Source: Nostoc sp. TCL240-02 (lineage in GTDB: Bacteria > Cyanobacteriota > Cyanobacteriia > Cyanobacteriales > Nostocaceae). Taken from it: DNA of 64,000 bases. Under the pieces are notes generated by a model. It did no database searches, was not told the origin of the DNA, and saw only the letters and a list, made by a program, of their open reading frames with translations. The position numbers and the translations under genes were made by a program. Positions within the stretch are counted from its first letter, which is position 1. Each line of letters opens with the position of its first letter. The stretch spans positions 3,906,501 through 3,970,500 of the forward strand of contig NZ_CP040094.1 of assembly GCF_013343235.1 (NCBI RefSeq). Reading direction: 5' to 3'. Below are positions 3,956 through 29,840 of the stretch, one piece after another.

Positions 3956-5086
3956 TCATTCAGCAGATGAAACACTGGGTATTACAGAACGAATTGCACT
4001 AATAAAGTTTTGAGCATAATTCTGCGTTGAAAAATCTAAAGCGCGTTGCCTGGCAGCTATGCCTGCACTGCGGGCAAATTCTTGTTCGTCAAGATAGCGG
4101 AGAATTGCGATCGCTAATTTATCTGCATCGCCGTAAGGTGTTAATAGTCCATTCATCCCATCGGTAATAATCTCTGTCGGGCCGCCTGCATCGCCAGCAA
4201 TTACAGGTTTACCCAGCGCCATAGCCTCAATAATCACAATTCCAAAGGGTTCTTTATCCGAAGCATGAACGAATACATCCATCGCCTGCACCCACTCCGG
4301 GATATTACGCTGTAGTCCAGCCATAATTACTTGCTCTTTCAAGCCCAAGGTAGCAATTTCGGCTTTTAAAAAGTCTTCATAGTCGGGTTCTAAATCGTGC
4401 TTACCGCCAACTACCACACAATGAGCATCAGGATACTTCTGTAAAATTTTGGGCATCGCTTGCACCAATATGTGCATTCCCTTCCATCGTTGCAATCGTC
4501 CTACAATTCCAATCAATGGGCCGTGTAAAGGTAAGCCCAGTTTTCGCCGTGCTTCTTCAGGAGTTGGCAAAGCATCAGGCTCAAATCGGTCAAGCGCCAC
4601 ACCAGGATAAACCAAGGGTGTTGGCCTGTGGGGCCAAATCTCTGCTTGTGCTTGCTTACCATCTTCAGAAAGGGTTATAATTGCTTGGGCTGGGATTAAA
4701 GTAGCAATTCGTACCAACCAAGTTTTATCGCTAGGTACTTCTAGTTGATACCATACAGCAGGCAAACCAGCCAGCATCGCCGCCAAGCCTCCAGATATAT
4801 GCGTAATCCACATCCAATTGACAATTATATCTGCACGTTCGCGGCGTGCGATCGCAGCTATCCGAAAAACAGCGCCAATAAAACGGTGGATTTGGCGTAA
4901 ACGTCCACTTTCCACAACTCGCGCATCAATACCAAGGGATTTGACTTGTTCAACCATTGGCCCGTGTTCTAAAAATATCACCAGCCACTCAACACCAGCA
5001 TTACGTCCTTGCTGCACCAAATCCCAAAGCATCATTTCACCGCCGCCTCGTTGTTCGGCTAGTGGCATCACAATAATTGTTTTCAT
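3956..5086 (-). CDS. glycosyltransferase, GT4 family
   Basis: A 376-residue GT-B fold enzyme that probably transfers a sugar from a nucleotide sugar to the growing polysaccharide repeat unit on the cytoplasmic membrane face. The N-terminus has the glycine-rich acceptor-side loop (QRGGGEMM). The C-terminal half has the family signature EPFGIVIIEAMALGKPVIA followed by a G-G-P-T-E-I segment that binds the donor. It is the most distal gene of the island, 188 bases after the polymerase-like gene. A 26-base piece of its coding region (4090-4115) is repeated downstream. Donor and acceptor sugars cannot be told from sequence. Confidence 0.85.
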   Translation of the reverse strand: MKTIIVMPLAEQRGGGEMMLWDLVQQGRNAGVEWLVIFLEHGPMVEQVKSLGIDARVVESGRLRQIHRFIGAVFRIAAIARRERADIIVNWMWITHISGGLAAMLAGLPAVWYQLEVPSDKTWLVRIATLIPAQAIITLSEDGKQAQAEIWPHRPTPLVYPGVALDRFEPDALPTPEEARRKLGLPLHGPLIGIVGRLQRWKGMHILVQAMPKILQKYPDAHCVVVGGKHDLEPDYEDFLKAEIATLGLKEQVIMAGLQRNIPEWVQAMDVFVHASDKEPFGIVIIEAMALGKPVIAGDAGGPTEIITDGMNGLLTPYGDADKLAIAILRYLDEQEFARSAGIAARQRALDFSTQNYAQNFISAIRSVIPSVSSAE

Positions 5087-5125
5087 AATTTATATCAGTC
5101 CTAATTTAAGTTGTAAGATTTTTTT

Positions 5126-5183
5126 GAACGAACCGCATTCGCGCAGCGTCTCGTTAGAGAAGAACGCAAAGGACACAAAGGAA
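5126..5183. repeat. small dispersed repeat, copy A
   Basis: Of this element, 57 bases (5127-5183) are the exact reverse complement of 62728-62784. Degenerate relatives occur near 8886, 21939 and 47881. It lies between two genes and carries the cgcagcgtctcgttagag core typical of Nostoc small dispersed repeats. Confidence 0.75.
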
Positions 5184-5274
5184 TAAGAGTTTTAAATAGT
5201 TATAGTGCTTCACGACTTGATGAGGTACATTCTCAAAGCTAATTAAGTCAAGTTCTTTCAGTTCAATTCCTAAT

Positions 5275-6705
5275 TTATAAACTCTTGGGATTGCTATAGT
5301 ATTTATGTCCTGCCATAGCCATAGCTAAAAATCCCCAAAGAATCATCCCTGCCACACTTAACATTCCACTACCAATAATTAGCTGTGTAGCAGAACTGAT
5401 ACCAATTGCGCGGGCAGCACTGATAAAACTATCAAAACGTCCCTCACCATAACTGCTAACACTAATAATTAACAAAAGTAATCCACCCATATAAAAGATA
5501 GCTCCAAACCAACCAAGGGTGAAAAACATATCTAAAATGCCACTATCAATCACCACAACTTCAATTTGACCAGTTTTTTCGTTGACTTTCCAGATATTTC
5601 CTAAGCCATTACCTAAACCGTTAGAAAGCGCTAGACCAAGATTTTTGTCATAACTTCCCGATCTATCTTTAAAACTTGTATCATCTTGAAGATTAGAAAA
5701 AGTTTCCAAACGGGCTGATACAACCCCAGCAATAGGCTCAATGGTTGTCAATGGCACAACACAAATTGCCATCACCGCAATTATAACAATCAAGCGCATT
5801 TGAATTCGTGCCTTGACTGAACCCACAATCATAATTATTCCAAATAACCAGCCTCCCCAATTAGTCCGCGCTTGTGTTAGTAAGAACGACAAGTAACCAA
5901 CAGCTGAAGCAGGAAAAATTAAATTTCCCGAACTGGTAAATAACAACAGTAAACCAGCTTGCATGACGGAACCAAAAGGGCCGACTGAGTGCAATGTACT
6001 CCAGACACGCATCCCGAAAGGTACGGGGTTTCCAGAACTCATGAATAGTTTTGATTGGATGAGCCAATACCTATCCCACTCAGGAGCTACTACGAATTGA
6101 TATATGCCATAAGTTCCTAAAATTAACACAGACCAAAGAAATGTTCGCTGAATATTCTGACGATAACTAGGATAATCTCGCCAGTTTATAAATAAGTGAA
6201 AAGCGAAGATAATCGGACTGAGCCAATCCAGCAGTCCGCGTGCTACAGGGATTGGTGGGTTATAAATAAGACCGATGAGAAAGCCATAAAAGACTCCGAT
6301 AAAAGCCATAACAAACGGCAAACCCCCTTGACGTGAGGCACGGGGAAAATGTCGCAAGAATGTTGCTATAGTTACAAATACCACCAAGTATGGTGCTATG
6401 AGCATCTGACGAGTAGCGTCCCAACCTACCCGATAGTCAACTAAGCGAGTAGCTAAGGGCGTGAGAAACCATATCCACCAGGTAAAGCTGATGTAGAGAA
6501 TGGGATGCCGCAAGTATAAGAATACGGCTACTGCTAAAGCTGTCACCGGATAAATTAGGCGCAATGCAGCAGTAACACCAGCAAAATAGCAAACTACAAT
6601 TAGTAGTATAAAGCCTGCGATCGCCATCCACCCCTGTTGCGATCGCTCTTCGGGAGAATAATTTTCTTCTAAAAAACTATTGAAAAGTATCTGTCTAGAA
6701 TTCAT
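5275..6705 (-). CDS. Wzy/O-antigen ligase-like polysaccharide polymerase
   Basis: A 476-residue polytopic membrane protein with about eleven hydrophobic segments, starting with one at about residues 27-45. A large hydrophilic loop near residues 340-400 (around FKDRSGSY and GLGNGLGNIWKV) is the typical position of the periplasmic loop in Wzy polymerases and WaaL ligases. Family sequence identity is low by nature, so the call rests on topology, length and position among glycosyltransferases of an exopolysaccharide island. It would join lipid-linked repeat units on the outer face of the membrane. It lies 69 bases after the upstream glycosyltransferase gene and is probably co-transcribed with it. 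Confidence 0.65.
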   Translation of the reverse strand: MNSRQILFNSFLEENYSPEERSQQGWMAIAGFILLIVVCYFAGVTAALRLIYPVTALAVAVFLYLRHPILYISFTWWIWFLTPLATRLVDYRVGWDATRQMLIAPYLVVFVTIATFLRHFPRASRQGGLPFVMAFIGVFYGFLIGLIYNPPIPVARGLLDWLSPIIFAFHLFINWRDYPSYRQNIQRTFLWSVLILGTYGIYQFVVAPEWDRYWLIQSKLFMSSGNPVPFGMRVWSTLHSVGPFGSVMQAGLLLLFTSSGNLIFPASAVGYLSFLLTQARTNWGGWLFGIIMIVGSVKARIQMRLIVIIAVMAICVVPLTTIEPIAGVVSARLETFSNLQDDTSFKDRSGSYDKNLGLALSNGLGNGLGNIWKVNEKTGQIEVVVIDSGILDMFFTLGWFGAIFYMGGLLLLIISVSSYGEGRFDSFISAARAIGISSATQLIIGSGMLSVAGMILWGFLAMAMAGHKYYSNPKSL

Positions 6706-6762
6706 TCAATTTTAGATTTTAGATTTACACATAAAAAATCCCAAATGAAATAATCGATCTGC

Positions 6763-6790
6763 AATGACAAATGACTAATGACCAATGACA
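6763..6790. repeat. heptameric tandem repeat (AATGACN x4)
   Basis: Four consecutive heptamers of the form aatgac plus one variable base. It belongs to the short tandemly repeated repetitive (STRR) class of heterocystous cyanobacteria. It supplies the last codons and the stop of the neighbouring glycosyltransferase gene. A related heptamer array lies at 39641-39662. Confidence 0.75.
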
Positions 6791-7701
6791 AATTGTTTAT
6801 ATCCTTGCCAGCGTCCCCGCCAAGATGCCAGTAATTTTTTCCCCGCCAACTGCCCTTGGCTAGGTAAAAATCTCAGCCATTGTACGAAACCCAAACTATC
6901 ACACGTACCCACAAATACTGCCCAGAATAAAAATACAATCCGGTGGATAAATGGCAAATGTTCTAGTAAAACTAAGGTTTCATTATGGACTAAATTAATA
7001 AAGGCAATCTCATTAAAATTATTTCGCTGATCTTCATCAAAACGTTGTGCAGGATAGTGGTCTACAGCAACATTAGGATCGTAAATTATCTTCCAACCAG
7101 CCCGCTTTAATGTTAGGGTAAATGCCATTTCAAAATGTACCTGCGCTCCAGTACCACGCATCCGCTCGTCAAAGCGTAGTTGTCCGATGGCCTCTTTACG
7201 AAAACTCATGTTTACGCCTTTGAGAATATCGACTTCGCGGGGTTCTCCCACTCCCAGATGATGGTTGCCAATCACTCGCCCAAACCACTGCAACTGTCCC
7301 ACTACTGGTCGCGATTCGTCTTCTAATTTGCTGCCGTGGTATACCCAATCACGCCCTCCTAAACCGCCAAGGCGACTATCTGAGGTAAAGTAAGCGGCAA
7401 TACGCTCTAACCAATCTGGGTGGGGTGCAGCATCATCATCAGTAATGGAGACAATATCGCCCTCTACTGCTGCTAGTCCGGCATTGAGGGCTGCTACTAC
7501 CCCCGGTTGTGTCACTTTCACGGTATGCAGTGGCAGATTGGGCGCGTTTAATTGCGCCAGGAATTGCCAAGTATCTGCATCCGTATCGCGGACAACCACT
7601 ATCACCTGATCGACGGGTTTAATTTGCTCCTGTAGCGCCAAAAGGCAGCGTGATAGGTCTTGTGGACGGCGATAAGTTGGTATCAGAACGGTGTTCCGCA
7701 T
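6775..7701 (-). CDS. glycosyltransferase, GT2 family
   Basis: A 308-residue GT-A fold enzyme. The N-terminus VLIPTYRRPQDL is the usual GT2 start. A TDDDAAPHPDW segment near residue 90 supplies the metal- and donor-binding aspartates, and the later GLGGRDW and FDERMRGTGAQVHFE segments match acceptor and base regions. Hydrophobic stretches near the C-terminus suggest membrane association. The start overlaps the preceding GT4 gene by 83 bases in another frame; the strong family match from the first residues argues for this start. The final residues V-I-G-H and the stop codon are provided by the heptamer repeat at 6763-6790, so the original end was probably different. Confidence 0.85.
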   Translation of the reverse strand: MRNTVLIPTYRRPQDLSRCLLALQEQIKPVDQVIVVVRDTDADTWQFLAQLNAPNLPLHTVKVTQPGVVAALNAGLAAVEGDIVSITDDDAAPHPDWLERIAAYFTSDSRLGGLGGRDWVYHGSKLEDESRPVVGQLQWFGRVIGNHHLGVGEPREVDILKGVNMSFRKEAIGQLRFDERMRGTGAQVHFEMAFTLTLKRAGWKIIYDPNVAVDHYPAQRFDEDQRNNFNEIAFINLVHNETLVLLEHLPFIHRIVFLFWAVFVGTCDSLGFVQWLRFLPSQGQLAGKKLLASWRGRWQGYKQFVIGH

Positions 7702-8821
7702 TCTTGCTTAACTCCTCGAATAAATCCACATAAGTTTGTGCCATAGTAGTCCAGCTATGTTTTTCTGCCACAGAACGAGCAGCTTTGCCCATTTGCTGTA
7801 TGAGCGTGGGACTACTCACCAAAGTCAGCAACGCCAAAGCCAAAGCATCAATATCATCTGAGTCAGGTAAGACGATGCCACATTCTGGTGTCACCAACTC
7901 TCCGCCCCCAGTGGCTTTGGCAGTAATTACTGGCAGTCCTGAAGAAAGTGCTTCTAACAATACGAGGCTGCAAGCTTCGTATCGGGAAGGAAACACAAAT
8001 AAATCTACTCCTTGCATAATTTGGGGGATATCACGGCGAAATCCCACAAAATGCACACGTTCACTTAACCCCAAAGAGGCTGCTAACTGAGGGAAAGGGC
8101 TATTTTGAGTGTGTCCCACTACCACCAAATGTAAATCGGGAACTTTCATCAAGGCGTGCAGTACTGTATCTAAGTTCTTTCTGGGTGTGCGGATGTCTCC
8201 AGCGAATAATGCTAGGGTGACATTTTCCGGTAAACCTAACTTTTGGCGGTCGCTTTCACCAGGGGCAAACTCTTCTAAGTCAACGCCATTGATAATTACG
8301 CGAATGCGAGAACGCGGTACACCAATATTGACTAATTCCTGCGCTACCTTTTCCGATACAGCCACAACAACCTGCGCCTTTTGGAAAGCCTGTTTCTCCC
8401 AACGGGCATTAAAAGCCGTAAACAGCCACTGGTATAAACCATATAAATCGCGGCGATTGCGGGAAATATGAACAGGCGATCGCAACCATGAACTATGCAC
8501 AAAATGTACAGCATTTACATCAGCCGCAGCCAGATTAATTGCACCATTGACTTTAACCAAATCAATCTCAGAGCGATGTTTCTGCAACCAATCTGTACTT
8601 TTTTGAGCAAATATGAAATTACGTAAAAATTCTGTTGGATAGTCTTTGACTAGAATTCTAACCCAATTAACTTGACTATTATTTTCTAGTTCTGGTGCGA
8701 TTTCACTAGCTAATAATGTAAGTTGATGACCACGACGAATTGCTTCATTCGCAACCTCATAGTTTACCCGTCCCTGTCCATCACCTTTTTTAATTTTATG
8801 AGTAACAATACAAAGTTTCAT
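7619..8821 (-). CDS. glycosyltransferase, GT4 family
   Basis: A 400-residue GT-B enzyme. The N-terminus is MKLCIVTHKIKKGDGQGRVN, with the glycine-rich loop in the usual place. The C-terminal half has GDIRTPRKNLDTVL (donor-binding start) and the signature RYEACSLVLLEALSSGLPVI. It presumably adds one sugar of the envelope polysaccharide repeat unit. The last 28 or so residues overlap the next gene and look like an unstructured tail (Ser/Thr/Pro rich) rather than a conserved end, so the original stop may have been lost. The gap to the upstream gene (206 bases) contains a dispersed repeat. Confidence 0.85.
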   Translation of the reverse strand: MKLCIVTHKIKKGDGQGRVNYEVANEAIRRGHQLTLLASEIAPELENNSQVNWVRILVKDYPTEFLRNFIFAQKSTDWLQKHRSEIDLVKVNGAINLAAADVNAVHFVHSSWLRSPVHISRNRRDLYGLYQWLFTAFNARWEKQAFQKAQVVVAVSEKVAQELVNIGVPRSRIRVIINGVDLEEFAPGESDRQKLGLPENVTLALFAGDIRTPRKNLDTVLHALMKVPDLHLVVVGHTQNSPFPQLAASLGLSERVHFVGFRRDIPQIMQGVDLFVFPSRYEACSLVLLEALSSGLPVITAKATGGGELVTPECGIVLPDSDDIDALALALLTLVSSPTLIQQMGKAARSVAEKHSWTTMAQTYVDLFEELSKNAEHRSDTNLSPSTRPITLPFGATGAN

Positions 8822-8885
8822 TCACTACCTTCTTTAGTAATCTAAACTCATCCAGAACCGCCGCCAAAGAACTTTAAATAATCTT

Positions 8886-9027: not shown

Positions 9028-10020
9028 TTATTTCGACAACTCTATTAATTTGTTTGCAAAAAAATGCGGAGTAAAACTAAGACTTAATGCCACTAAAGTC
9101 CGCACATTAAATTTTTGTTTAGTCAGCGCCTGCCAAAAATAAGGACGTGCTACTGCTATCTGTTCACTTCGCAGCAAACCAATCCCCAAAGTTGTATTAG
9201 CCTCTAACCATTTCTGTTGAAAATATACCCTAAATTGCTGCAACCGATCGTCTTCCATAAAAACTTGATAACAGAACATTTCGCTTTTAGCTTTGCGAAT
9301 TTTTGCCTGCATATCTCGACTACCACTGAGCATGGTATCAGTTTGCTCATGGGCACGATATCGCGTTAATCTTTCTGGATAGTAGTAAGCGCCATAACCA
9401 GATATACAACAGAGGTAAGTTAAATATAAATCCCACATTCCGCCAACTTCTGGAGGAATACTATCCCAATCGATAACATTATTGCGAATCACACAAGATG
9501 CAGCAGTGGGTATGCTTTTATCAATTAACCCAATTTTAGAGAAAGGTTGATGAATTCCTTTTGCTAGTTTGTCTCGCTTATAACCGCGTGTATTTTTTTC
9601 AGTTCCAGGATCATTAATTATACTATTTGCATCTATTATATATTGGTCACAAAAAGCGAGAATTAACTCAGAATTTGCTTCTAGTATTGGTACAAGTTTT
9701 GCTAGAAAGTCTTCATTCCAGATATCATCATCGTGAAGACTAGCAACATACTTACCTCGCGCCATTTTGAAGGCGTGTTGCTGGTTAGCAAGCATACCTA
9801 CATTTTGCTCATGTCGCCAAAATCTGATGCGTAAATCTTCAAAAGATGCGACAATGGCTTGAGTATTTTCTGTACTACAATTATCAGAAACAATAATTTC
9901 GATATTTCGATAAGTTTGTTTAATAGCACTAGCGATCGCTTGCTTGAGATAATCTGGCCGATTATAAGTAGGGATAATAACGCTGACTAAAGGCTGTTGG
10001 CATTCTTGAGATAATGACAT
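9028..10020 (-). CDS. glycosyltransferase, GT2 family
   Basis: A 330-residue GT-A enzyme with a textbook start: VSVIIPTYNRPDYLKQAI, then IEIIVSDNCSTENT for nucleotide binding and ASLHDDDIWNEDF as the metal-binding DxD region. The C-terminal 120 residues are less conserved and probably set the acceptor. It sits in the middle of the glycosyltransferase run, 63 bases after the preceding GT4 gene, and is probably in the same transcript. Which sugar it adds is not visible. Confidence 0.87.
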   Translation of the reverse strand: MSLSQECQQPLVSVIIPTYNRPDYLKQAIASAIKQTYRNIEIIVSDNCSTENTQAIVASFEDLRIRFWRHEQNVGMLANQQHAFKMARGKYVASLHDDDIWNEDFLAKLVPILEANSELILAFCDQYIIDANSIINDPGTEKNTRGYKRDKLAKGIHQPFSKIGLIDKSIPTAASCVIRNNVIDWDSIPPEVGGMWDLYLTYLCCISGYGAYYYPERLTRYRAHEQTDTMLSGSRDMQAKIRKAKSEMFCYQVFMEDDRLQQFRVYFQQKWLEANTTLGIGLLRSEQIAVARPYFWQALTKQKFNVRTLVALSLSFTPHFFANKLIELSK

Positions 10021-10083: not shown

Positions 10084-11286
10084 TTATTTCACTTGAGGAA
10101 TGCTATATAATTTTTTCGCTCTCGGAGGAAAGTCAGCTATTGTGTTTGTATAAATTGTTCGCAGATTATTTACATGAGCAGCCATTGTAAATTCCTTCAT
10201 CAATAAAGCATGGCCTTGTTCACCCATTTGTCTGCTTTTTTGATAATCTTCATACAAATCATGAATAGCATCAACCAGCTTTTTGATATCATTAGCTGGA
10301 ACCAGAATACCCGTTTCTCCATCTCGTAAATGTTCTGGGATGCCTCCGACTGCACTACCAATTACAGGACGATAATTAGCATAAGCTTCCAGAGTTACAA
10401 GACCGGCAGGTTCAGGCCAAACACTAGGGAATATGACTGTAAAACACTGTTGATAAAGTTGATTTATTTTGTCAGCATCGCACCAACCATGCCAAACAAT
10501 CCGATTACTTAATCCGAGTGTATTTGCTAGTTTTTCTAACCGTGGTCGTTCCCAGCCTTCACCTGCGATATCAAGTTTAATTTGCGGATTTGTATGTATT
10601 AAGGTTTTAAGCAGCCATTCCAGACCTTTATCAGAAACAATGCGACCAACAAACAAAATTCTATGATTTTGATGGACTTCTAAACTTAGAGGAGCAGTCT
10701 TTATTTGCGGTACAGAGATACCACAGTGTAGCGTTACAATTTGCTCAGAAGGTAAACCGTTTTTAATCAACTCTTGACGCACATATTCGCTATTAGCAAC
10801 AAAAGTAATTTTTACCTTTTTTAAGGTATCTAATAACTGATGAGTATTTTGAAGTTCTTTAAGAGTTCGTAACGGTCTGCGGCTACCGCATTTATCTACT
10901 AGTTTACCCCAAGTACAACCCAAGTAAGAGAAGTTGCGATCGCAGATTGTGCGCTGTCCTGCTAAATACTTTGTGCCACTAGGACAGTATATTGAGTGAT
11001 TATGAACACTAAAGACAGTAGGACATTCGCCCGTAAGCTGCAATAATAAATCTGGACTGTGGATGTGCAGCAGCTTGAATTGGCTTTGGTTAACACCCTT
11101 GAGCGATTTTATCACGCGATCGCTAACTTCAGGTGGTCGATGTTCAAACAGAGAAGCTAAATAAGTTTCAACACCTCCACCCTCACCTACATTAAAATTA
11201 GAGCATTGATAAATCAGGTCTTCTTCAAAAATCCCTCTGTGCAATTGTTTATTATTTTGTTTGGCATCATTGATTGAGTTAAGCAT
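10084..11286 (-). CDS. glycosyltransferase, GT4 family
   Basis: A 400-residue GT-B enzyme. After an unusual 25-residue hydrophilic leader comes the NVGEGGGVETYLASLF loop. The middle contains a cysteine-rich stretch (YCPSGTKYLAGQRTICDR, then GCTWG and DKCG) seen in some bacterial GT4 enzymes and possibly metal-binding. The C-terminal half shows LFVGRIVSDKGLEWLL and WPEPAGLVTLEAYANYRPVI, the donor site. The preceding gene ends 71 bases upstream, and it is followed after 63 bases by a GT2 gene, so it is likely part of the hepC-hepA transcription unit. Confidence 0.85.
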   Translation of the reverse strand: MLNSINDAKQNNKQLHRGIFEEDLIYQCSNFNVGEGGGVETYLASLFEHRPPEVSDRVIKSLKGVNQSQFKLLHIHSPDLLLQLTGECPTVFSVHNHSIYCPSGTKYLAGQRTICDRNFSYLGCTWGKLVDKCGSRRPLRTLKELQNTHQLLDTLKKVKITFVANSEYVRQELIKNGLPSEQIVTLHCGISVPQIKTAPLSLEVHQNHRILFVGRIVSDKGLEWLLKTLIHTNPQIKLDIAGEGWERPRLEKLANTLGLSNRIVWHGWCDADKINQLYQQCFTVIFPSVWPEPAGLVTLEAYANYRPVIGSAVGGIPEHLRDGETGILVPANDIKKLVDAIHDLYEDYQKSRQMGEQGHALLMKEFTMAAHVNNLRTIYTNTIADFPPRAKKLYSIPQVK

Positions 11287-11357: not shown

Positions 11358-12197
11358 TTATATGCCAACATTAAACCAAAGCTTGTGTCTAACATCACTC
11401 ACATAATGTCTGAGAGCAATGTTTTTACTTGCAGATTTATCTGGATAGATGAACTGATCTTCTACATTGAGAACATATTTATTTGAGCATAGAGGTCTAC
11501 CATGATTGTGGTGCATTGTCAAATGGACAATTGTTTGTTCAGTAAAATAACTAGGAACTTCTTGAAGATTTGCTAAACGTTCGATGGCAAAACTCCAGTC
11601 AAATTCATGCCTAAATAATATAAATCCACCATTTACAGGATTTGACTTTTCAGACTCATCATAAATAATTCGCTCGTCAAGCGACATAGAACAATCAGGT
11701 AGATAAAGAGAGTATTTTTCGTCCGACTTACTCAAATCAATTAAGTCAATCCCGCCAGGAAAAAATAAAATATCTGAATCAGTGTAAATCGTAGTACCAT
11801 TAACAGGAATAGACATCAATGCCGACAACTTTCTGCCCATTGGATGCAGTTGGGCATAATCAAGAACACATTGAGGTAAATCTGTTCTCAGGAAGTTTTG
11901 TAAAAGTATTACCTGAACGCAGGGATGAATGCGGCGGAGTAAATTACAACTAGAATCAGTATAACTGCCATCAGAAACTACAGTAAATGTCTCTGGAATG
12001 CCGATATGACGAATGAATGAGCGAATACTTGCCACTTGTTCTGGTAAATCGCGTTCGCATGATAAGGCATAGATACTTACTGGAACTTGCCGAGTTTGTT
12101 TGATGGGAATACTGACAATCTGAGAAAGGGCTGCTTTATATAGAGAGCGATTAAATTTACCCTGAATTTTAGCAGTGTGGTAGCCTATATTTACCAT
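11358..12197 (-). CDS. putative GT-A type glycosyltransferase, family not recognised
   Basis: A 279-residue soluble protein with no signal peptide or membrane segment. The central TIYTDSDILFFPGGIDL segment is a DxD motif in the context expected for a GT-A nucleotide-sugar transferase. The preceding MGRKLSALMSIPV stretch and the later NGGFILFRHEFDW are compatible with donor and acceptor loops. I do not recognise the subfamily. It lies directly after hepA (82 bases) and before a GT4 gene, so a role in building the same polysaccharide is inferred from position. Confidence 0.6.
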   Translation of the reverse strand: MVNIGYHTAKIQGKFNRSLYKAALSQIVSIPIKQTRQVPVSIYALSCERDLPEQVASIRSFIRHIGIPETFTVVSDGSYTDSSCNLLRRIHPCVQVILLQNFLRTDLPQCVLDYAQLHPMGRKLSALMSIPVNGTTIYTDSDILFFPGGIDLIDLSKSDEKYSLYLPDCSMSLDERIIYDESEKSNPVNGGFILFRHEFDWSFAIERLANLQEVPSYFTEQTIVHLTMHHNHGRPLCSNKYVLNVEDQFIYPDKSASKNIALRHYVSDVRHKLWFNVGI

Positions 12198-12240: not shown

Positions 12241-12289
12241 GAATTCGTAATTTGCAAATTACAAATTACGAATTACAAATTACGAATTA
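12241..12289. repeat. AT-rich imperfect repeat (aattacgaatta / aaattac)
   Basis: An array of aattacgaatta and aaattac units, a common intergenic repeat type in Nostoc. It reaches into hepA: the last two codons (Asn, Ser) and the stop of hepA lie inside it. Confidence 0.65.
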
Positions 12290-22026: not shown

Positions 22027-22581
22027 TTATTTAGAGGCACTGCCAACAGTCATCATTCTCAACAAAGGCCAACTTAAATCTTTCTCAGACATTTCAGTTA
22101 CATCTAGAGGCCAATCAATGGCAAAGAATGGGTCATCATAGCGTAAACCTCTCTCATACCCTGGCGTATAAAATTCACCCACTTGATATACAACTTCAGT
22201 CTCATCTGTAAGTGCTTGATAGCCGTGAGCAAACATTTCTGGAACATACAAAGCGCGGCGGTTTTCTGGTGTTAGTTCCACCCCAATGTGTGATAGAAAG
22301 CTAGGAGATTCAGGACGCATATCAATAATTACGTCATAGATAGCGCCTTTAGTACAGCGAATTAACTTCGTTTCTGCTGCTGGCAGAATTTGATAGTGCA
22401 TTCCTCGGATAGTGCCTTTTTTGTAGTTAAAAGACAGGTTGCATTGGGCAACTGTTGGCTTTAATCCGTGTGCTTCAAATTCTTGAGCGCAGAAAGACCG
22501 AGCAAAAAAACCACGGTGGTCTGGCTTTTCTTCTAAGTCAATAATGAATGCGTCTTTGAGTTCGGTTGCGGTGAAAATCAT
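22027..22581 (-). CDS. rfbC: dTDP-4-dehydrorhamnose 3,5-epimerase-like (RfbC/RmlC)
   Basis: A 184-residue cupin of the usual family length. It shows KPDHRGFFARSF, the catalytic histidine in TIRGMHYQ, the lysine in AETKLIRC, DVIIDMRPESPSF, and PEMFAHGYQAL with the later YTPGYERGLRYDDP tyrosine region. It would epimerise a 4-keto-6-deoxy nucleotide sugar at C3 and/or C5. The island has a cytidylyltransferase but no visible dTDP-glucose synthase or 4,6-dehydratase, so the real substrate may be a CDP- rather than dTDP-linked 4-keto sugar, or the dTDP enzymes lie elsewhere. Confidence 0.82.
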   Translation of the reverse strand: MIFTATELKDAFIIDLEEKPDHRGFFARSFCAQEFEAHGLKPTVAQCNLSFNYKKGTIRGMHYQILPAAETKLIRCTKGAIYDVIIDMRPESPSFLSHIGVELTPENRRALYVPEMFAHGYQALTDETEVVYQVGEFYTPGYERGLRYDDPFFAIDWPLDVTEMSEKDLSWPLLRMMTVGSASK

Positions 22582-22800: not shown

Positions 22801-22814
22801 TTAAATTTACGTTT

Positions 22815-23666
22815 TTAATTTGAAACTTTAACTACATCTGATGCAGACTGTAACTCTATTCTGGGATAAGTATCATCCCAGTATTGGGTACAGAGGTCTG
22901 GCCGTTCAGGAGGATTAGCGGTGTAGCAAAAGAATAGTGTTGACCGGTCTTCTGTACGAACTGTGCCGTGATGTAAGGCATTTTTGGTATCTACAATAAT
23001 GACTGTACCTGCTGGGCCTGGACAAGATTTCCAAGCTGATTTGGGGATGACTGGTTTTACTTGTTCATCGTCGATACCCATATAGTTTGACTTCCAAAGT
23101 TTGTAGTAAAGTCGAACATAATTCCAACTAAATAAGGAAGTTAGGGAGCGAGGGATGTATTGAAAAGGCCCAGTTTTTTCTTCTACATCATTCAAGTAAA
23201 TAATGATTTTGATAATCCGCCGATCTTCTGCATCGCTATGCCATAGTAGTGTCCCAAACTGATATTTGCTTTTGAAATCTTTGCGTAAATGTACACCATG
23301 AAAAGCAATAGGAAGACCGATATAGTTTTCGATGATGTTGAGTAGCCTTTTCTCTACACCCCAGGCATAAAATTCTGGTAAGCCTGTAACTGTGTAAATT
23401 TGTGGCAATCTTTCATCTAGATGCTCATTGGTGGGATTTTCCATCTGAAGCAATTGATGGTGAGCAGCTTTGAGCAGTTCGGAGCTAGAGTCGAACCCTA
23501 AATCTGCCAAATTGGTGACGTAAACACCATCTTTTTTGAGAGTCTTAAGGATGTTGCGATCGCTTCCTGCTAATGCTGGCAGATTTCTGCTATGCTTCCA
23601 ACGAGCTAGGTAATATTCAAAGTCAGATGAGAGTGTAGCTATTTTGCGTTTAATCGCGTTAAACAT
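22815..23666 (-). CDS. PhyH-like Fe(II)/2-oxoglutarate dioxygenase
   Basis: A 283-residue soluble protein. The iron-binding facial triad is visible as H143-x-D145 in LLWHSDAEDR and a distal histidine, H232 or H233, in NALHHGTVRT. R241 in EDRST is placed to bind 2-oxoglutarate. GPFQYIPRS and GPAGTVIIVDT are typical beta-helix elements of the phytanoyl-CoA dioxygenase family. Such enzymes hydroxylate small molecules, lipids or sugars using O2. In this island it probably modifies a sugar or lipid precursor, but the substrate cannot be named. It is 49 bases after a GT2 gene, suggesting co-transcription. Confidence 0.75.
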   Translation of the reverse strand: MFNAIKRKIATLSSDFEYYLARWKHSRNLPALAGSDRNILKTLKKDGVYVTNLADLGFDSSSELLKAAHHQLLQMENPTNEHLDERLPQIYTVTGLPEFYAWGVEKRLLNIIENYIGLPIAFHGVHLRKDFKSKYQFGTLLWHSDAEDRRIIKIIIYLNDVEEKTGPFQYIPRSLTSLFSWNYVRLYYKLWKSNYMGIDDEQVKPVIPKSAWKSCPGPAGTVIIVDTKNALHHGTVRTEDRSTLFFCYTANPPERPDLCTQYWDDTYPRIELQSASDVVKVSN

Positions 23667-23715: not shown

Positions 23716-24723
23716 TTATGGCTTATAGATACGTACTTCTTCAGTAGATATTTCGCTTGATTCTGCTAAACCGAATTCTTTAGAAACCATTACATCAAAA
23801 GCACATAAGCTGACTAAAGCCAAAAATGGAACTACTGTTTTGATGGCAGACATCGGCCATCTTCTTAAAGCACCCAAGAAAACTTTTAAGTTGACTTCTT
23901 TACCATTCTGCAAAAGCATCCGTCTACAAAATTGCTTAGAATATCCACTCTGCTCTAATTTCAAAATCACTTCAGGAATATGTTTGTATTGCATTAATAG
24001 TGCTGATTTTGGTTCTTTCTGCCAATAACTCACACCAACAATACATTCTAAATAAGTCTCTTTAGTGACAATTACACTACCATTAGCAGCACAATATCCG
24101 GCTAAATATGCTAAAGATATCCAGTTATTCTCAGCATCTGACCAATCCTGTAGAGCGCGTTTTACTAAGTCAGTGCGATAGACTGTAGCAGTCAGAAAAA
24201 TGACTGCACCGACACTTTTTGAAAAACAATGTTCAAATATGGCTTTACCATCACCTTTAGCATCTTCACTATCAACATCAAACCAGCGATTACCAACGAT
24301 TGTTGGTGGATGAACTGGTTCACCAGTAATTTGGTTACGACCGGAAAAATTGAGGAATAATAATGATAAATCTTCGTGTTGTCTGAGTTTGCTAATCACA
24401 TAAGCAATTGCTCTATCTTGAATTGGATCATCATCGCCGATTGTCCAAACATATTTTGTTGTTGTAGACTTTAGGCAATACATAATATTTTTAACTACGC
24501 CTAAATTCTTTAGATTCTTACTTGATTTAAATGTAATATTGTTAAGTTTTACTTGCCATTTTTGGATCACCTCCTGAGTATTATCTGTTGAACAATTATC
24601 GGATACTAAAATCTCACACTCATCTTCAAAACCTTTGATAGCTTGAGCCAACCATGTTAGCTGTTTATCAAGTAAACTGGCACGATTATAAGTTGGTATG
24701 GCAATAGTCAGGAGTTTATTCAT
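23716..24723 (-). CDS. glycosyltransferase, GT2 family
   Basis: A 335-residue GT-A enzyme starting with LLTIAIPTYNRASLLDKQL. CEILVSDNCSTDNTQEVI is the nucleotide-binding segment and VWTIGDDDPIQDRAI is the aspartate-rich metal site. A hydrophobic segment near residues 292-312 suggests a membrane anchor. It belongs to the same type as the GT2 gene at 9028-10020. It lies between the C-methyltransferase (199 bases upstream) and the PhyH-like gene. Confidence 0.85.
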   Translation of the reverse strand: MNKLLTIAIPTYNRASLLDKQLTWLAQAIKGFEDECEILVSDNCSTDNTQEVIQKWQVKLNNITFKSSKNLKNLGVVKNIMYCLKSTTTKYVWTIGDDDPIQDRAIAYVISKLRQHEDLSLLFLNFSGRNQITGEPVHPPTIVGNRWFDVDSEDAKGDGKAIFEHCFSKSVGAVIFLTATVYRTDLVKRALQDWSDAENNWISLAYLAGYCAANGSVIVTKETYLECIVGVSYWQKEPKSALLMQYKHIPEVILKLEQSGYSKQFCRRMLLQNGKEVNLKVFLGALRRWPMSAIKTVVPFLALVSLCAFDVMVSKEFGLAESSEISTEEVRIYKP

Positions 24724-24922: not shown

Positions 24923-26200
24923 TTACGACGCTATTAAAAGCCTATCCGGAATAGAACACGGATAAATTTTTACTTCAGGAATTGGTACAACAAACTGTCC
25001 ACCCCACTCGCCAATAAATGCCATTTGCTCCATAATTTCCTCTTTGAGATTCCAAGGTAAAATTAGAACATAATCTGGTTTAGTTTCGCGGATTTTGTCT
25101 GGTTCAAAGATAGGAATATGAGTTCCAGGTAAAAATAAGTCTTGTTTGTAAGGGTTGCAATCGACTGTGTAATCGATAAAATCTTTCCCAATCCCACAGT
25201 AATTAAGCAATGTGTTGCCTTTGGCCGGTGCGCCATAACCAACAATTGATTTCCCTTCTGCTTTTGCACTCAGAAGAAAATTTAATAGCTTATGCTTTGT
25301 TTTTTTGACTTTTTCGCCAAATGTAATATAAGTCTCTATCTGATGCAGTCCGGCAGCAATTTCTTTTGCTTTCAGATGGCTAACTCGGTCACTGATGTCA
25401 GGACTATCAGCATCGTTATGTTTGGCATAAATTCTTAGTGAACCACCATGAGTTGATAACTCTTCCACATCAAAAAGTTGCAAATTGTGTGCTGCAAAAA
25501 TCTTTTCGATAGTAATAAATGAGAAGTAAGAAAAATGCTCGTGATAAATAGTATCAAATTGATTTTGTTCAATCAATTGCAAAATGTGAGGAAACTCCAT
25601 CGTCAAAATACCATTCGGTTTGAGGATAAGTTTCATCCCAGCGATGAAATCATTTAAATCTGGTACATGAGCTAAAACATTGTTGCCTATCAAAAGATCG
25701 GCTAGTTTTCCTTGTATCACAAGTTCTTTGGCAGTCTCAACCCCAAAAAACTTGTTGATACTAGGAATACCTCTATCTTGAGCTATCTTAGCTATATTTG
25801 CGGCTGGTTCTATTCCTAAAACGGGGATTCCCTTTTCTACAAAATATTGCAATAGGTAGCCATCGTTGCTGGCAATCTCAATAACTTGATTATGATGATT
25901 AAAGCCAAATTTCTCTACCATCATATCAGTGTAAGCTTTGACGTGTTTTAGCCAACTTACTGAGTAAGATGAAAAGTAAGCATAATCGCTAAAAATATGA
26001 TCGGGAGTTTCAAATTGTTCTAATTGAACTAAAAGAGTCTCTTCAGACACATAAGCGTGGAGTGGATAAAATTTTTCGGCATGATTTAGCTGTTCTGCTG
26101 TCAGATAAGCATTAGCTAAAGGTGACATTCCTAAATCAATAAAGGTTTGGTGCAGAGGTTGACCACTGAAACGACATTTTGCGTTTGCCATATTTTTCAA
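24923..26200 (-). CDS. sugar C-methyltransferase, three-domain type
   Basis: A 425-residue enzyme with the layout of deoxysugar C-methyltransferases such as TylC3/NovU: an N-terminal small domain (residues about 5-65), a SAM-binding domain (VIEIASNDGYLLQYFVEKG near residue 105, then LIGNNVLAHVPDLNDF), and the C-terminal domain with SIVGYGAPAKGNTLLNYCGI. It transfers a methyl group from SAM to a sugar carbon, giving a branched sugar. The N-terminal domain normally binds zinc with two Cys-x2-Cys pairs. Here only one cysteine remains (CRFSG, and VSEET in place of VCxxC), so zinc binding is probably lost. It is 101 bases after the SDR gene, in the order cytidylyltransferase, flavoprotein, SDR, methyltransferase. 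Confidence 0.82.
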   Translation of the reverse strand: MKNMANAKCRFSGQPLHQTFIDLGMSPLANAYLTAEQLNHAEKFYPLHAYVSEETLLVQLEQFETPDHIFSDYAYFSSYSVSWLKHVKAYTDMMVEKFGFNHHNQVIEIASNDGYLLQYFVEKGIPVLGIEPAANIAKIAQDRGIPSINKFFGVETAKELVIQGKLADLLIGNNVLAHVPDLNDFIAGMKLILKPNGILTMEFPHILQLIEQNQFDTIYHEHFSYFSFITIEKIFAAHNLQLFDVEELSTHGGSLRIYAKHNDADSPDISDRVSHLKAKEIAAGLHQIETYITFGEKVKKTKHKLLNFLLSAKAEGKSIVGYGAPAKGNTLLNYCGIGKDFIDYTVDCNPYKQDLFLPGTHIPIFEPDKIRETKPDYVLILPWNLKEEIMEQMAFIGEWGGQFVVPIPEVKIYPCSIPDRLLIAS

Positions 26201-26301
26201 CTCACTGATTACAAATAATTTGATGGATGAAATAAGTCCGAACCAAATATTGTTGATTCGGAAACTTAGATTATTGATTCTTTGTTGATAGGCAACTCTA
26301 T

Positions 26302-27330
26302 CTACTTTTTATTCCAGAAGAAATCTTTGTCAATTTGCTCGGTACGGATTAGATACTCTAGCTGTTTTAAGCGAGTAAATCCTCTAAACAAGAAAGTGTC
26401 TTCAGCCATATCTATTTGGCTAAATAAATCAAATAGCTGCTGGGCACCAAGTCGGGCATTCCAATCACATTTAAATCCGGGGAGAATTGTGTTGATTTTC
26501 TCGAAGGATACCCGATAGCTGCGGTTGTCTGAGCCGTTGTCACCAAAGGATAATTTACAATCTGGGAAAATATCAGCAATAATTTCCGCAATTTCTTTGA
26601 CACGATAGTTGTTTGCTGTGTCTCCCACGTTGAAGATTTGGTTATGTACAATATCCCGTGGTGCTTCTAAAGCGCAGACTATTGCTTTGCAAATATCCAG
26701 TGCGTGGACTAATGGCCGCCAAGGTGTGCCATCACTAGTCATTTTGATTTGTTTGCTAGTCCATGCCAACCCAGCTAAGTTGTTTAAAACAATATCAAAG
26801 CGCATTCTCGGAGAAGCACCAAAGGCTGTGGCATTCCGCATAAAGGTGGGAGAGAAATCATCGTCAGCGAGTGGTCTGACATCCTGTTCTACCAGAGTTT
26901 TGCATTCTGCGTAGGCTGTTTGAGGATTAATTGGGGATTCTTCTGTGACATCACCTGCGGTAGCAACGCCGTAGACACTGCACGAAGACATATATACAAA
27001 ACGACGCACACCCATAGCTTTAGCCAGGCTAGCGAGACGAACTGAACCTACATGATTAATTTCGTAGGTAATATTAGGTGCTAATTGTCCGGCTGGGTCG
27101 TTGGAAAGTTCCGCCATGTGAACTATTGCTTCAACGCCTTCCAAATCATCGGGGGTGATGTTGCGAATATCTTTGTTAAGGGTTTTGGGTGTTACCCCAT
27201 TAGCGTTGTATAGCCAACCGACTTTATAAAAACCAGTATCTAGACCGATAACTTCATGTCCGCGTTCGATTAACAGAGGCGGTAATAATGAACCTAAATA
27301 GCCTTCTGTTCCAGTTACTAATATTTTCAT
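26302..27330 (-). CDS. extended SDR, NAD-dependent sugar-nucleotide epimerase/dehydratase
   Basis: A 342-residue extended short-chain dehydrogenase. The nucleotide motif is VTGTEGYLGSLL at the N-terminus, and the catalytic residues are in YMSSCSVYG and the YAECK (YxxxK) motif near residue 145. WRPLVHALDICKAI and NQIFNVGD are standard family segments. It acts on a nucleotide-activated sugar in the cytoplasm. It is the only candidate in the window for a sugar 4,6-dehydratase or 4-ketoreductase step between RfbF and the C-methyltransferase. Sequence alone does not separate epimerase, dehydratase and reductase functions. Confidence 0.8.
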   Translation of the reverse strand: MKILVTGTEGYLGSLLPPLLIERGHEVIGLDTGFYKVGWLYNANGVTPKTLNKDIRNITPDDLEGVEAIVHMAELSNDPAGQLAPNITYEINHVGSVRLASLAKAMGVRRFVYMSSCSVYGVATAGDVTEESPINPQTAYAECKTLVEQDVRPLADDDFSPTFMRNATAFGASPRMRFDIVLNNLAGLAWTSKQIKMTSDGTPWRPLVHALDICKAIVCALEAPRDIVHNQIFNVGDTANNYRVKEIAEIIADIFPDCKLSFGDNGSDNRSYRVSFEKINTILPGFKCDWNARLGAQQLFDLFSQIDMAEDTFLFRGFTRLKQLEYLIRTEQIDKDFFWNKK

Positions 27331-27753: not shown

Positions 27754-28968
27754 CTATGCAGTTACTACATTATTTAGATGCGAGGGTTGGGGAATTTCTG
27801 CTACAAGCGCTTTGCCAATTTCTAGAGAAGATGTGGCCGCAGGAGAAGGAGCATTGCAAACATGGATGGAGTTTTGACCGGAAACAATCAAAAAGTCATC
27901 TACAAGCTTGCCATCGTTCATTAAGGCTTGAGCGCGAACTCCTGCGTGGGTGGGAACTAAGTCTTCTGCTTGGACTTCGGGAATTAGTTTTTGCAAACTT
28001 CTGGTGAAGGCTGCTTTACTAAAGGAACGAATGATTTCTTGGATGCCTTCATCAGCATGTTTGGCTGCCAATTTCCAGAAACCTGGATAGGTGACGACTT
28101 CAAGAAAATCCCGTAAGTCAAAATCGGTTTTTTTGTAACCTTCGCGTTTGAGTGACAGAACTGCGTTTGGCCCTGCGTGGACGCTACCATCAATCATCCG
28201 GGTAAAGTGGACACCCAGGAAGGGGAAATCGGGATTGGGAACTGGGTAAATTAGTGTCTTGACGAGATAGCGTTTTTCTGGGGTGAGTTCGTAGTATTCT
28301 CCCCGGAATGGGACGATTTTGGCTTGGGGTTCAACTTTACCTAATTTGGCGGTGCGATCACTATGCAATCCCGTACAATTAATTACAAAGCGGGTTGCAA
28401 AGTTACCTTTGTTTGTTTCTAGTACCTGATTTTTACCACTTGGGGAGATTTTCAGAACTTTTGTATTGAGATGCAAATCTCCACCCTGTTGTTGAATTAG
28501 CTGGGCATATTTCAAACAAACTTGCTTGTAATTAACAATCCCAGTTGAGAATACCCGAAGCCCACCTACGCATTTTACGTGAGGTTCGATTTCCCTGACT
28601 TCTTCGGGGCTGATTCTCTTAACTTCTATACCATTGTCTAAGCCGCGTTGGTAGAGATTTTCTAGACGTGGTAGTTCTTGTTCTTCTGTTGCAACAATGA
28701 CTTTACCACAAACTTCATGTTCTATTCCATGCTCTTGGCAAAATTCTACCATAGAGCGAGAACCATCACGACAAAATTTAGCTTTGAAACTCCCTGGCTT
28801 GTAGTAAATACCAGAATGAATTACCCCACTATTATTGCCTGTTTGGTGAAATGCCCATTGACTCTCTTTTTCTAGTACTAAAATACGCCCATTGGGATAG
28901 CGTTTTCCTAAAGCCAATGCTGTAGAGAGTCCAACTATTCCCCCACCTATAATCGCAAAATCATACAT
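27754..28968 (-). CDS. lhgO: LhgO-like L-2-hydroxyglutarate oxidase (FAD)
   Basis: A 404-residue FAD-dependent oxidoreductase of the DAO fold. IIGGGIVGLSTALAL binds FAD. HQTGNNSGVIHSGIYY and the later VHFTRMIDGSVHAGPNAV and PTHAGVRAQALM are strongly characteristic of L-2-hydroxyglutarate oxidase. The family reaction turns L-2-hydroxyglutarate into 2-oxoglutarate, passing electrons to O2 or quinones. It is the second gene of the island, 98 bases after rfbF, which is an unexpected place for this metabolism. A different 2-hydroxyacid or sugar acid substrate is possible. Confidence 0.83.
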   Translation of the reverse strand: MYDFAIIGGGIVGLSTALALGKRYPNGRILVLEKESQWAFHQTGNNSGVIHSGIYYKPGSFKAKFCRDGSRSMVEFCQEHGIEHEVCGKVIVATEEQELPRLENLYQRGLDNGIEVKRISPEEVREIEPHVKCVGGLRVFSTGIVNYKQVCLKYAQLIQQQGGDLHLNTKVLKISPSGKNQVLETNKGNFATRFVINCTGLHSDRTAKLGKVEPQAKIVPFRGEYYELTPEKRYLVKTLIYPVPNPDFPFLGVHFTRMIDGSVHAGPNAVLSLKREGYKKTDFDLRDFLEVVTYPGFWKLAAKHADEGIQEIIRSFSKAAFTRSLQKLIPEVQAEDLVPTHAGVRAQALMNDGKLVDDFLIVSGQNSIHVCNAPSPAATSSLEIGKALVAEIPQPSHLNNVVTA

Positions 28969-29042
28969 TAGTATTATCGCACTTAAAATTACAGTAAATC
29001 CATAAAGTTATTTGGGATTGGGTATTGGTTAGAAAAATTCTT

Positions 29043-29065
29043 TCCCAGTCCCAGTCCCCAGTCCC
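29043..29065. repeat. short cccagt tandem repeat
   Basis: Cccagt-type units (cccagtc, cccagtc, cccagtc) in the gap between rfbF and the flavoprotein gene; a small STRR-like array close to the rfbF stop. Confidence 0.5.
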
Positions 29066-29066
29066 C

Positions 29067-29840
29067 TTACCATACCTTCCAAGGAGCCTGATTGTTTTTC
29101 CATAGCCCCTCTAGATAGTTTTTATCGCGTAAAGTATCCATAGGTTGCCAAAAACCATCATGTTTAAAAGCAGATAGTTGTTCCATATCAGCTAGCTTTT
29201 CTAATGGCTCTTGCTCCCATACTGTAGAGTCATCAGCAATCAAATTGATTATTTCTGGTTCTAACACAAAATAACCGCCATTAATCCAAGCTCCATCACC
29301 TTCAGGTTTTTCCCGAAAGCTGGTAATTTTAGTTTGCTCATATCCCAAGGAAATGGCTCCAAAACGTCCGGCTGGTTGAACTGCTGTGAGTGTTCCTAAT
29401 GTATTTTGTTCTTTGTGAAACTTCACTAGCTCGGTGATATTAATATTACTGACACCATCACCATAAGTAAAGCAAAAGGTGTCATTACCAAGATGTTCCC
29501 TGATTCGCTTTAAGCGTCCGCCTGTCATGGTATTATCACCCGTATTGACTAAGGTAACACGCCAGGGTTCTGCATAACCAGAATGCACGTTCATCTGGTT
29601 AAATCGCATATCAAAGGTAACATCTGACATGTGTAAGAAGTAGTTAGCAAAATACTCCTTAATTATGTAACCTTTGTAACCGCAACAAATGATGAAGTCG
29701 TTAATGCCGTGGGCGGAGTAAGTCTTCATTATGTGCCAGAGAATTGGCTTACCACCAATCTCAACCATCGGCTTGGGTCTGATACTAGTTTCTTCACTGA
29801 GGCGTGTACCAAGTCCTCCAGCCAAAATCACCGCTTTCAT
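29067..29840 (-). CDS. rfbF: glucose-1-phosphate cytidylyltransferase
   Basis: A 257-residue nucleotidyltransferase of the usual length. The N-terminus AVILAGGLGTRLSEETSIRP holds the phosphate-binding loop. KPMVEIGGKPILWHIM, FCFTYGDGVSNIN (metal-binding Asp) and GDGAWINGGYFVLEPE complete the RfbF pattern. It makes CDP-glucose from CTP and glucose-1-phosphate, the entry to CDP-deoxysugars. A GAGG ribosome-binding site lies 7 bases before the ATG. It is the first gene of the island; the gene upstream of it ends at a terminator, so its own promoter should lie in 29841-30081. Confidence 0.9.
   Translation of the reverse strand: MKAVILAGGLGTRLSEETSIRPKPMVEIGGKPILWHIMKTYSAHGINDFIICCGYKGYIIKEYFANYFLHMSDVTFDMRFNQMNVHSGYAEPWRVTLVNTGDNTMTGGRLKRIREHLGNDTFCFTYGDGVSNINITELVKFHKEQNTLGTLTAVQPAGRFGAISLGYEQTKITSFREKPEGDGAWINGGYFVLEPEIINLIADDSTVWEQEPLEKLADMEQLSAFKHDGFWQPMDTLRDKNYLEGLWKNNQAPWKVW

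Follow-up and report, generated by a model that had tools for sequence, protein, structure and literature searches.

The heterocyst envelope polysaccharide (HEP) island of Nostoc sp. TCL240-02 is located on the minus strand at positions 3956–29840 of a stretch of 64,000 nucleotides, referred to here as the window (assembly GCF_013343235.1, contig NZ_CP040094.1, positions 3,906,501 to 3,970,500). HEP is the sugar coat that keeps oxygen out of the nitrogen-fixing cells of cyanobacteria. We propose, as a probable account, that the island consists of a polysaccharide assembly core joined to a nucleotide-sugar cassette, that its HepC protein is non-catalytic, that its HepA protein acts as the flippase and that synthesis is initiated by a STAS-domain transferase. 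The repeat units would be assembled intracellularly on undecaprenyl phosphate, with initiation by a conserved phosphoglycosyl transferase that has a STAS domain and is probably orthologous to All4160 of Anabaena. They would be flipped by HepA in place of Wzx and polymerised by Wzy, with the chain length being set by Wzc. HepC would descend from the initiating phosphoglycosyl transferase of the locus itself, the catalytic residues of which would have been lost in the heterocyst-forming family, and would most likely act as a non-catalytic membrane partner. Its gene content marks the region as a HEP island in a Nostoc-like genome. The window sits in one 7.89-Mb contig. The genome has one HetR_C match and three nifH loci over the cut-off, and the closest named HepC loci are those of Nostoc species, that of Nostoc sp. 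LEGE 12450 showing 92 per cent identity. The host, known from its genes alone, is judged from hetR, nifH and these Nostoc neighbours to be a heterocyst-type diazotrophic Nostoc.

The comparisons were made in a class-wide sample of 388 genomes, 24 of which belong to the family of the window and 364 do not. The family of the window was taken as Nostocaceae and the other families were taken as non-heterocystous, their matches naming Leptolyngbya sp. FACHB-261 and Stenomitos frigidus. The 38 Nostocaceae loci comprise the window, 22 loci from sampled genomes and 15 from named species (14 of them Nostoc or Desmonostoc). The sampled-genome loci come from 22 of the 23 other family genomes, the fragmented G366 being left out, and their species may overlap with the named-species set. 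Outside the family, the first set holds 68 HepC loci, mostly high-scoring, from 65 of 97 genomes. To remove this high-score bias, a second set was read, consisting of the remaining 32 genomes and eight second copies; at least three further second copies (two in G326, one in G244) lie outside both sets. The alignment of 107 loci contains the 38 Nostocaceae loci, the 68 loci of the first set and G381b, a degenerate, below-cut-off second HepC-like gene of a Nostocaceae genome, which explains a count of 69 for the group designated as outside.

The hepC gene (14236–14961, minus strand) is the third gene of the core, and its product scores 330 bits to NF045514 at a cut-off of 140. HepC matches PF02397 and PDB entries of both the PglC and the WbaP type of monotopic phosphoglycosyl transferases. 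In PglC the active site contains the dyad Asp93 and Glu94, and Lys59, Arg88 and Arg111 orient the substrate (PMC12802240); the Asp-Glu dyad of these enzymes is also given in PMC10519829. The dyad, the PRP motif and the C-terminal region, all present in the PglC/WbaP enzymes, are lost in Nostocaceae HepC. Of the features of the re-entrant helix, the Pro is kept in 38 of 38 loci and the Asp in 32, and the window HepC has both. The dyad and the PRP motif are both intact in none of the 38 Nostocaceae loci and in 61 of the 68 first-set loci outside the family. The window HepC reads Asp-Asn at the dyad position, and the dyad Glu is missing from all 38 loci, in which Asn (31 loci) or other residues (seven loci) are found. 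The second Pro of PRP occurs in none of them, and the Asp column of the C-terminal DL.YL motif is a gap in every one. As is evident in the alignment, Nostocaceae HepC also has no loop of about 25 residues after KFRT and no C-terminal region. The equivalent of Arg88, identified by its spacing from the dyad, is present in five of the 38 loci compared with 61 of the 61 intact loci of other families. The dyad is kept by none of the 120 listed of 838 database matches to the window HepC, and by all 120 listed of 6147 scored matches to the HepC of G149, a genome of another family. The predicted structure of the window HepC has a predicted local distance difference test score (pLDDT) of 76.6 and a predicted template modelling score (pTM) of 0.70, and that of a canonical Leptolyngbya HepC 84.2 and 0.81, respectively. 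According to their secondary-structure strings, the two models share the N-terminal elements and a long helix, and the C-terminal helices appear to be missing from the window model. Taken from the residues, Nostocaceae HepC is probably a pseudo-enzyme that has lost catalysis. No publication was found on HepC as a phosphoglycosyl transferase in cyanobacteria or on a phosphoglycosyl transferase pseudoenzyme; most subscription papers, including the original ones on the HEP island, were outside the search, and prior recognition is possible. Likewise, none of the ten titles listed for HEP evolution and export dealt with this subject.

If HepC is inactive, another transferase would be required for initiation. 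The genome encodes four further PF02397 proteins besides HepC, and each of the 24 family genomes holds at least two other matches to the transferase family of HepC. One of the four, P0361, consists of a STAS domain joined to a transferase with an intact SLDELPQ motif, and its catalytic domain and that of HepC gave 99.8 per cent probability in a profile comparison. Homologues of P0361 over nearly the whole length were found in 30 of 30 family genomes, with 71–94 per cent in the 29 others. Another transferase of the genome has matches at E 1e-100 in 21 of the 30. In Anabaena, all4160 encodes a glycosyltransferase with an N-terminal STAS domain (PMC8256260); it is among the genes on which HEP synthesis depends, and when sigC is mutated its expression drops together with that of the island (PMC4390870). 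We suggest that the active HEP initiator is probably the STAS-domain transferase P0361, encoded outside the island. By eye, a STAS-like domain was also seen at the N-terminus of HepC; this candidate was rejected, since comparing its profile against the one STAS sequence of P0361 gave 0.1 per cent probability.

The hepA gene (12280–14121, minus strand; 1062 bits to NF045513, cut-off 725), core gene 4, encodes an ABC exporter that appears to occupy the flippase slot. In eight loci a Wzx protein of about 487 amino acids is encoded after hepC, at a distance of 138–228 bp in seven and of 1.4 kb in one, and HepA is present in none of these. Its family was called from one protein, of which a 90-residue piece matched the MOP-type families PF13440 and PF01943. 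Over the 107 loci, HepA only is found in 79, Wzx only in eight and both in none. No Wzx of this type was found in the 38 Nostocaceae loci, where HepA stands in its place; the search used one Wzx cluster, which a distant Wzx could escape. This mutual replacement favours a shared job of HepA and Wzx, the moving of a lipid-linked repeat unit. PglK of Campylobacter and Wzk of Helicobacter, which are MsbA-type ABC proteins like HepA, move lipid-linked oligosaccharides. HepA, with 1062 bits to its own model, reaches 240 bits with the PglK model and has a Wzy-like protein alongside. This Wzy-like membrane protein (5275–6705, minus strand) has no Pfam match itself and belongs to a membrane-protein cluster found in 69 loci; of its 120 listed homologues, many have PF04932, the Wzy/O-antigen-ligase family, or bear the name of an O-antigen ligase domain protein. 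The island has glycosyltransferases, a Wzc-like co-polymerase and a Wzy-like polymerase in common with the Wzx/Wzy-dependent capsule and O-antigen pathway, and differs from it in having HepA for Wzx and a degenerate initiating transferase of its own.

Several observations weigh against this proposal. The nucleophile Asp of the dyad is kept in 27 of the 38 Nostocaceae loci and in 89 of the 120 listed database matches, and an altered HepC chemistry may be compatible with this retained Asp. HepC could then still be the initiating transferase, with Asn acting for Glu, and the purifying selection on hepC agrees with that. We consider this alternative unlikely, because the Asp is lost in 11 of the 38 loci, neither the PRP motif nor the loop after KFRT nor the C-terminal region remains, the Arg88 equivalent is lost in most loci, and other members of the transferase family are available in every family genome, the STAS type in 30 of 30, with the dyad checked in the copy of the window's genome. 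Furthermore, HepC loci outside Nostocaceae are degenerate as well. The second set contains 29 intact loci, nine degenerate ones (L235, L238, L241, L242, L244, L247, L248, L249 and L257) and two that are cut off (29 of 38 readable loci intact); together with the first set, 90 of 106 readable loci are intact and 16 degenerate, with at least one locus from each of the 97 genomes. Since 16 of 106 loci outside the family are also degenerate, the catalytic loss does not appear to be tied to heterocysts, and degeneration of HepC as a heterocyst-only event is ruled out. The reading of Nostocaceae HepC does not rest on the share of degenerate loci outside the family. The identity of P0361 as the All4160 orthologue is plausible and draws on the description of the Anabaena protein, not on compared sequence.

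The slot after hepC raises a similar reservation. Neither HepA nor a Wzx of the found type is present in 20 of the 107 loci, five of them near contig ends. Among 12 such loci, three (G135, L139 and L149) have an ABC-2-type permease-like protein in the slot, as judged by eye, and two have another membrane protein with nine helices; in G135 an ATPase follows the permease-like protein, also by eye. Because ABC-2-type permease-like proteins occupy it in three loci, the slot serves export in a wide sense. This would be in line with HepA exporting the finished polysaccharide, as in the ABC-transporter-dependent pathway, instead of single repeat units. The likeness of HepA to MsbA and PglK, the presence of the Wzy-like polymerase and the exchange of HepA with Wzx in eight loci argue against such a function, which we regard as rather doubtful. 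Movement of single repeat units by HepA is still preferred.

It is also conceivable that hepC is a decaying pseudogene left from an older locus. The median omega over 18 Nostoc loci, the pairs of which are not independent, is 0.27 for HepC compared with 0.077–0.096 for HepA, Wzc, GT4, DRL and Wzy, and catalysis has been lost repeatedly outside the family; in the tree described below, the seven degenerate first-set loci occupy six separate places, which implies that the loss recurs, and the nine of the second set stand outside that tree. All 38 Nostocaceae hepC stop-to-stop frames, however, are at least 237 amino acids long, omega is well below 1, a promoter-like element upstream of hepC is conserved, and Anabaena hepC is induced 47- and 19-fold according to a table of PMC4365693. 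A pseudogene is therefore highly improbable. With omega at 0.27, above that of the neighbouring genes, selection on Nostocaceae HepC is relaxed but real, purifying selection persisting. A conserved, non-catalytic HepC remains our reading.

By their distribution in the class, the genes of a core and of a cassette can be told apart in the island. The core starts with a glycosyltransferase family 4 (GT4) gene (17949–19049; PF00534), which opens the core in other families too, and continues with a gene for a Wzc-like polysaccharide co-polymerase resembling bacterial tyrosine kinases (15595–17844; PF02706, TIGR01007 121 bits, cut-off 108), hepC and hepA. The cassette comprises, in this order, the genes for RfbF, a glucose-1-phosphate cytidylyltransferase (29067–29840; TIGR02623 462 bits, cut-off 300), an oxidoreductase dependent on flavin adenine dinucleotide (FAD) of the L-2-hydroxyglutarate oxidase family (27754–28968; NF008726 624 bits, cut-off 299), an epimerase/dehydratase of the short-chain dehydrogenase/reductase type (26302–27330; PF01370), an RmlC-type epimerase (22027–22581; TIGR01221 169 bits, cut-off 156) and a DRL/SAF oxidoreductase (19179–20492; PF21135 185 bits), all on the minus strand. 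DRL, RmlC and RfbF are absent upstream of all 68 first-set loci outside the family, where up to 7 kb was read in 60, up to 17 kb in eight and less near contig ends. DRL was found at E 1e-60 in 118 of the 388 genomes, 94 of them outside the family. Twenty of these outside loci were fetched, and 18 hold RfbF, RmlC and DRL in order: 11 have all five cassette genes, one has no epimerase gene, and six have neither the FAD nor the epimerase gene. The gap was translated in five of these six, and in each it encodes a CDP-glucose-dehydratase-like protein, as judged by eye; in the genome of the window CDP-glucose 4,6-dehydratase has no match over the cut-off. HepC and DRL occur together in 42 genomes outside the family, on the same contig in nine, where they are never less than 45 kb apart, and on different contigs in 33, for which adjacency was judged from the flanks read. 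In 22 of the 24 family genomes DRL and hepC are less than 7 kb apart, and in the fragmented assemblies of G136 and G366 the two are on different contigs. The class-wide DRL search thus found the cassette in other families, and the earlier idea that the five genes are confined to Nostocaceae was dropped; because the cassette was found apart from the core there, the reading was changed to one of fusion. The distribution suggests that the island is a fusion of the assembly core and the RfbF-FAD-epimerase-RmlC-DRL cassette, joined in Nostocaceae and apart in the other families examined.

For the core, a tree of GT4 and Wzc was made from 96 loci, including the 59 of the 68 first-set outside loci in which both proteins are long enough. 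The 37 Nostocaceae loci group together with a support of 0.999, and the next branch, with a support of 1.0, is G127 (L113), a genome of another family. Its HepC, in which the dyad and the PRP motif are retained, the C-terminus is missing and the helix Asp is replaced by Asn, is an apparent intermediate toward the Nostocaceae state. In the Walker A' motif of Wzc, IDANLR is read in 37 of the 38 Nostocaceae loci, the motif not being found in one, and 49 of the 58 other loci in which the motif was found have Asp for that Asn. As with HepC, the kinase activity of Wzc may have weakened.

The wzc-hepC gap has a median length of 806 bp in the 38 Nostocaceae loci compared with 106 bp in 59 others. In the window it contains, on the minus strand, a conserved element of 25 bp (15379–15403), located 442 bp upstream of the hepC ATG. 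The element is found at up to five mismatches in 36 of the 38 Nostocaceae gaps and at six in the remaining two. None of the 59 other loci has it, the best having eight mismatches; many of their gaps are short, and one of 9 bp is too short to test. Allowing up to three mismatches, the genome has a single copy of a 23-bp version of the element. A sequence similar to TTATATTCTAGA, which resembles a -10 box, follows at a near-fixed distance in most Nostocaceae loci, and the window has the exact copy (15338–15349, minus strand). The element contains AAAGA twice, 11 bp apart, a pair that would suit a response regulator. NtcA, DIF (TCCGGA) and CRP-like palindromes, searched by consensus in the wzc-hepC and hepC-hepA gaps, are not enriched over shuffled sequences in Nostocaceae, and no known site of nitrogen control is proposed. 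Nostoc loci have a hairpin immediately ahead of the hepC ATG; it was rejected because it lacks family-wide conservation. A looser copy of the element, with three mismatches to a 19-bp pattern, lies on the plus strand at 34197–34215, between the VWA gene described below and a divergent DUF4388 gene.

Only in Nostocaceae were the joined island and the promoter-like element of hepC found, and this does not hold for hepC and hepA themselves. HepC is over its curated cut-off in 121 of the 388 genomes, namely in all 24 of the family and in 97 of the 364 others, and HepA lies within 1.5 kb of HepC in 41 of the 68 first-set loci outside the family. That the presence of hepC and hepA predicts a heterocyst former, as the first-pass annotation had held for the island, is therefore not supported. 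PMC4365693 places HepC among the heterocyst-specific ortholog groups; with more genomes, this specificity fails at the family level. Automatic naming puts the name "heterocyst development glycosyltransferase HepC" on canonical enzymes in Leptolyngbya, Chroococcus and Stenomitos.

The overall layout agrees with what had been annotated from the sequence, an island of about twenty genes on one strand in which HepC and HepA stand side by side, sugar-nucleotide enzymes and a Wzc-like protein come before hepC, and glycosyltransferases and a Wzy-like polymerase follow hepA. Positions 3956–29840 are filled by 20 minus-strand open reading frames (ORFs) of 184–749 amino acids each, with shorter plus-strand ORFs within them. 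The intergenic spacing is 49–423 bp, hepC and hepA being 114 bp apart; the exceptions are one overlap of 83 bp and one gap of 633 bp upstream of hepC. Upstream of hepC, the remaining genes encode a sugar C-methyltransferase (24923–26200; PF08421 and PF08484), a glycosyltransferase of family 2 (GT2; 23716–24723; PF00535), a weakly PhyH-like protein (22815–23666; PF05721 at E 0.001, below the cut-off), possibly an iron/2-oxoglutarate dioxygenase, and a divergent glycosyltransferase (20602–21846; weak PF00534). Downstream of hepA lie the genes for a 279-amino-acid protein without Pfam or NCBIfam match (11358–12197), in which a DSD motif as in some glycosyltransferases was seen by eye, and, assigned by the family scan, for a GT4 (10084–11286), a GT2 (9028–10020), a GT4 (7619–8821) and a GT2 (6775–7701) glycosyltransferase, the last two genes overlapping by the 83 bp. 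The Wzy-like gene and a further GT4 gene (3956–5086) close the island. All these genes are on the minus strand. Beyond its upstream end, a transposase of the DDE_Tnp_1 family is split over two frames at 36258–37622, and a release-factor gene at 38415–39284 has PCRF and RF-1 domains, the first part of PCRF missing in this frame. The programmed frameshift known from prfB could account for this.

Within Nostocaceae the order GT4-Wzc-HepC-HepA is kept in all 37 other loci, and DRL precedes GT4 in 36, the stretch of G136 beginning at GT4. At the match thresholds used, G087 gave no match to the FAD and epimerase genes, nor did G129 and G381a to those for the GT2 and the PhyH-like protein. Of 21 other readable sampled-genome loci, three have the C-methyltransferase; the named-species stretches end before its position. 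The glycosyltransferase encoded at 20602–21846 is found in the same three of 21 and in 13 of 15 named-species loci. These two genes bear out the expectation of lineage-specific additions before hepC. Downstream, the 279-amino-acid protein is present in six of 22 sampled-genome and 10 of 15 named-species loci, and the last GT4 in six of 22 and 14 of 15, respectively. In G143, a family member of 3.8 Mb (L091-L092), the island is truncated, the Wzy gene and most downstream glycosyltransferase genes being missing, and no match to the window Wzy was found in that genome at E 1e-20.

Three minus-strand genes precede the island. They encode a VWA-domain protein (33226–33927; PF00092), a PP2C-type phosphatase (32394–33176; PF13672, 205 bits) and a Ser/Thr-kinase-like protein with TPR repeats (30169–32337; PF00069, 32.0 bits against a cut-off of 31.7). 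The three occur together in 13 of 22 other sampled-genome loci; in G252 they are on the opposite strand beyond the Wzy gene. Among the remaining sampled loci, five are truncated at the stretch end, three stop short of the position, and G381a is without these genes in 7 kb. In the Anabaena sigC mutant, alr2822-alr2824, directly before the island, are lowered along with it (PMC4390870). From their position, the three window genes are the likely counterparts of alr2822-alr2824, and the co-regulated unit probably extends upstream to 33927, with the VWA gene as its probable start. In gene arrangement the region resembles the E. coli pair YegI-PphC(YegK), a Ser/Thr kinase standing beside a PP2C phosphatase in both; the E. 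coli pair has a VWA neighbour, YegL. The window kinase differs in carrying TPR repeats and in adjoining a polysaccharide island. The STAS sequence of P0361 contains DSSGLG, the phospho-serine motif of partner-switching proteins. The STAS motif, together with the PP2C and kinase genes at the head of the island, suggests a possible switch. A more far-reaching scenario can be offered tentatively, as a fairly unlikely one: the two loci would have fused in the ancestor of heterocystous cyanobacteria, HepC would have become a pseudo-phosphoglycosyl transferase serving as membrane partner or gate, initiation would have passed to the All4160-type STAS transferase, and synthesis might be switched by partner-switch phosphorylation with HepC as the docking partner.

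The HEP island of Anabaena sp. PCC 7120, alr2825-alr2841, is listed in a table of PMC4390870 as cytidylyltransferase, epimerase, rfbC, NAD(P) oxidoreductase, glycosyltransferase, hepC and hepA, followed by glycosyltransferases. The Anabaena work cited there addresses the need of the island for the envelope polysaccharide layer, and published expression data after nitrogen step-down fit for the Anabaena and N. punctiforme orthologues. Compared by gene description, the window genes run in the same order, with 20 genes, 11 of them upstream of hepC, against 17 and nine in Anabaena. This, along with the family synteny, agrees with the resemblance in set and order that the first-pass annotation had noted. 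The region could be a HEP island of the usual kind, in which the extra methyltransferase and glycosyltransferase genes are the only novelty, as that annotation had proposed. Such a reading has some, though limited, likelihood; it leaves the degeneration of HepC, the separate loci in other families and the family-wide hepC promoter-like element unaccounted for, and is contradicted as a complete account. What goes beyond the known island is the degeneration of HepC, the fusion of core and cassette together with the hepC promoter-like element, and HepA in the Wzx slot. The proposal of a fused island with a non-catalytic HepC would name the likely real HEP initiator and the likely role of HepA. 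It would also provide a stepwise, testable account of how the oxygen barrier of a multicellular bacterium may have arisen: a general exopolysaccharide core and a nucleotide-sugar cassette became one locus, a promoter arose and the initiator already present there ceased to be catalytic.

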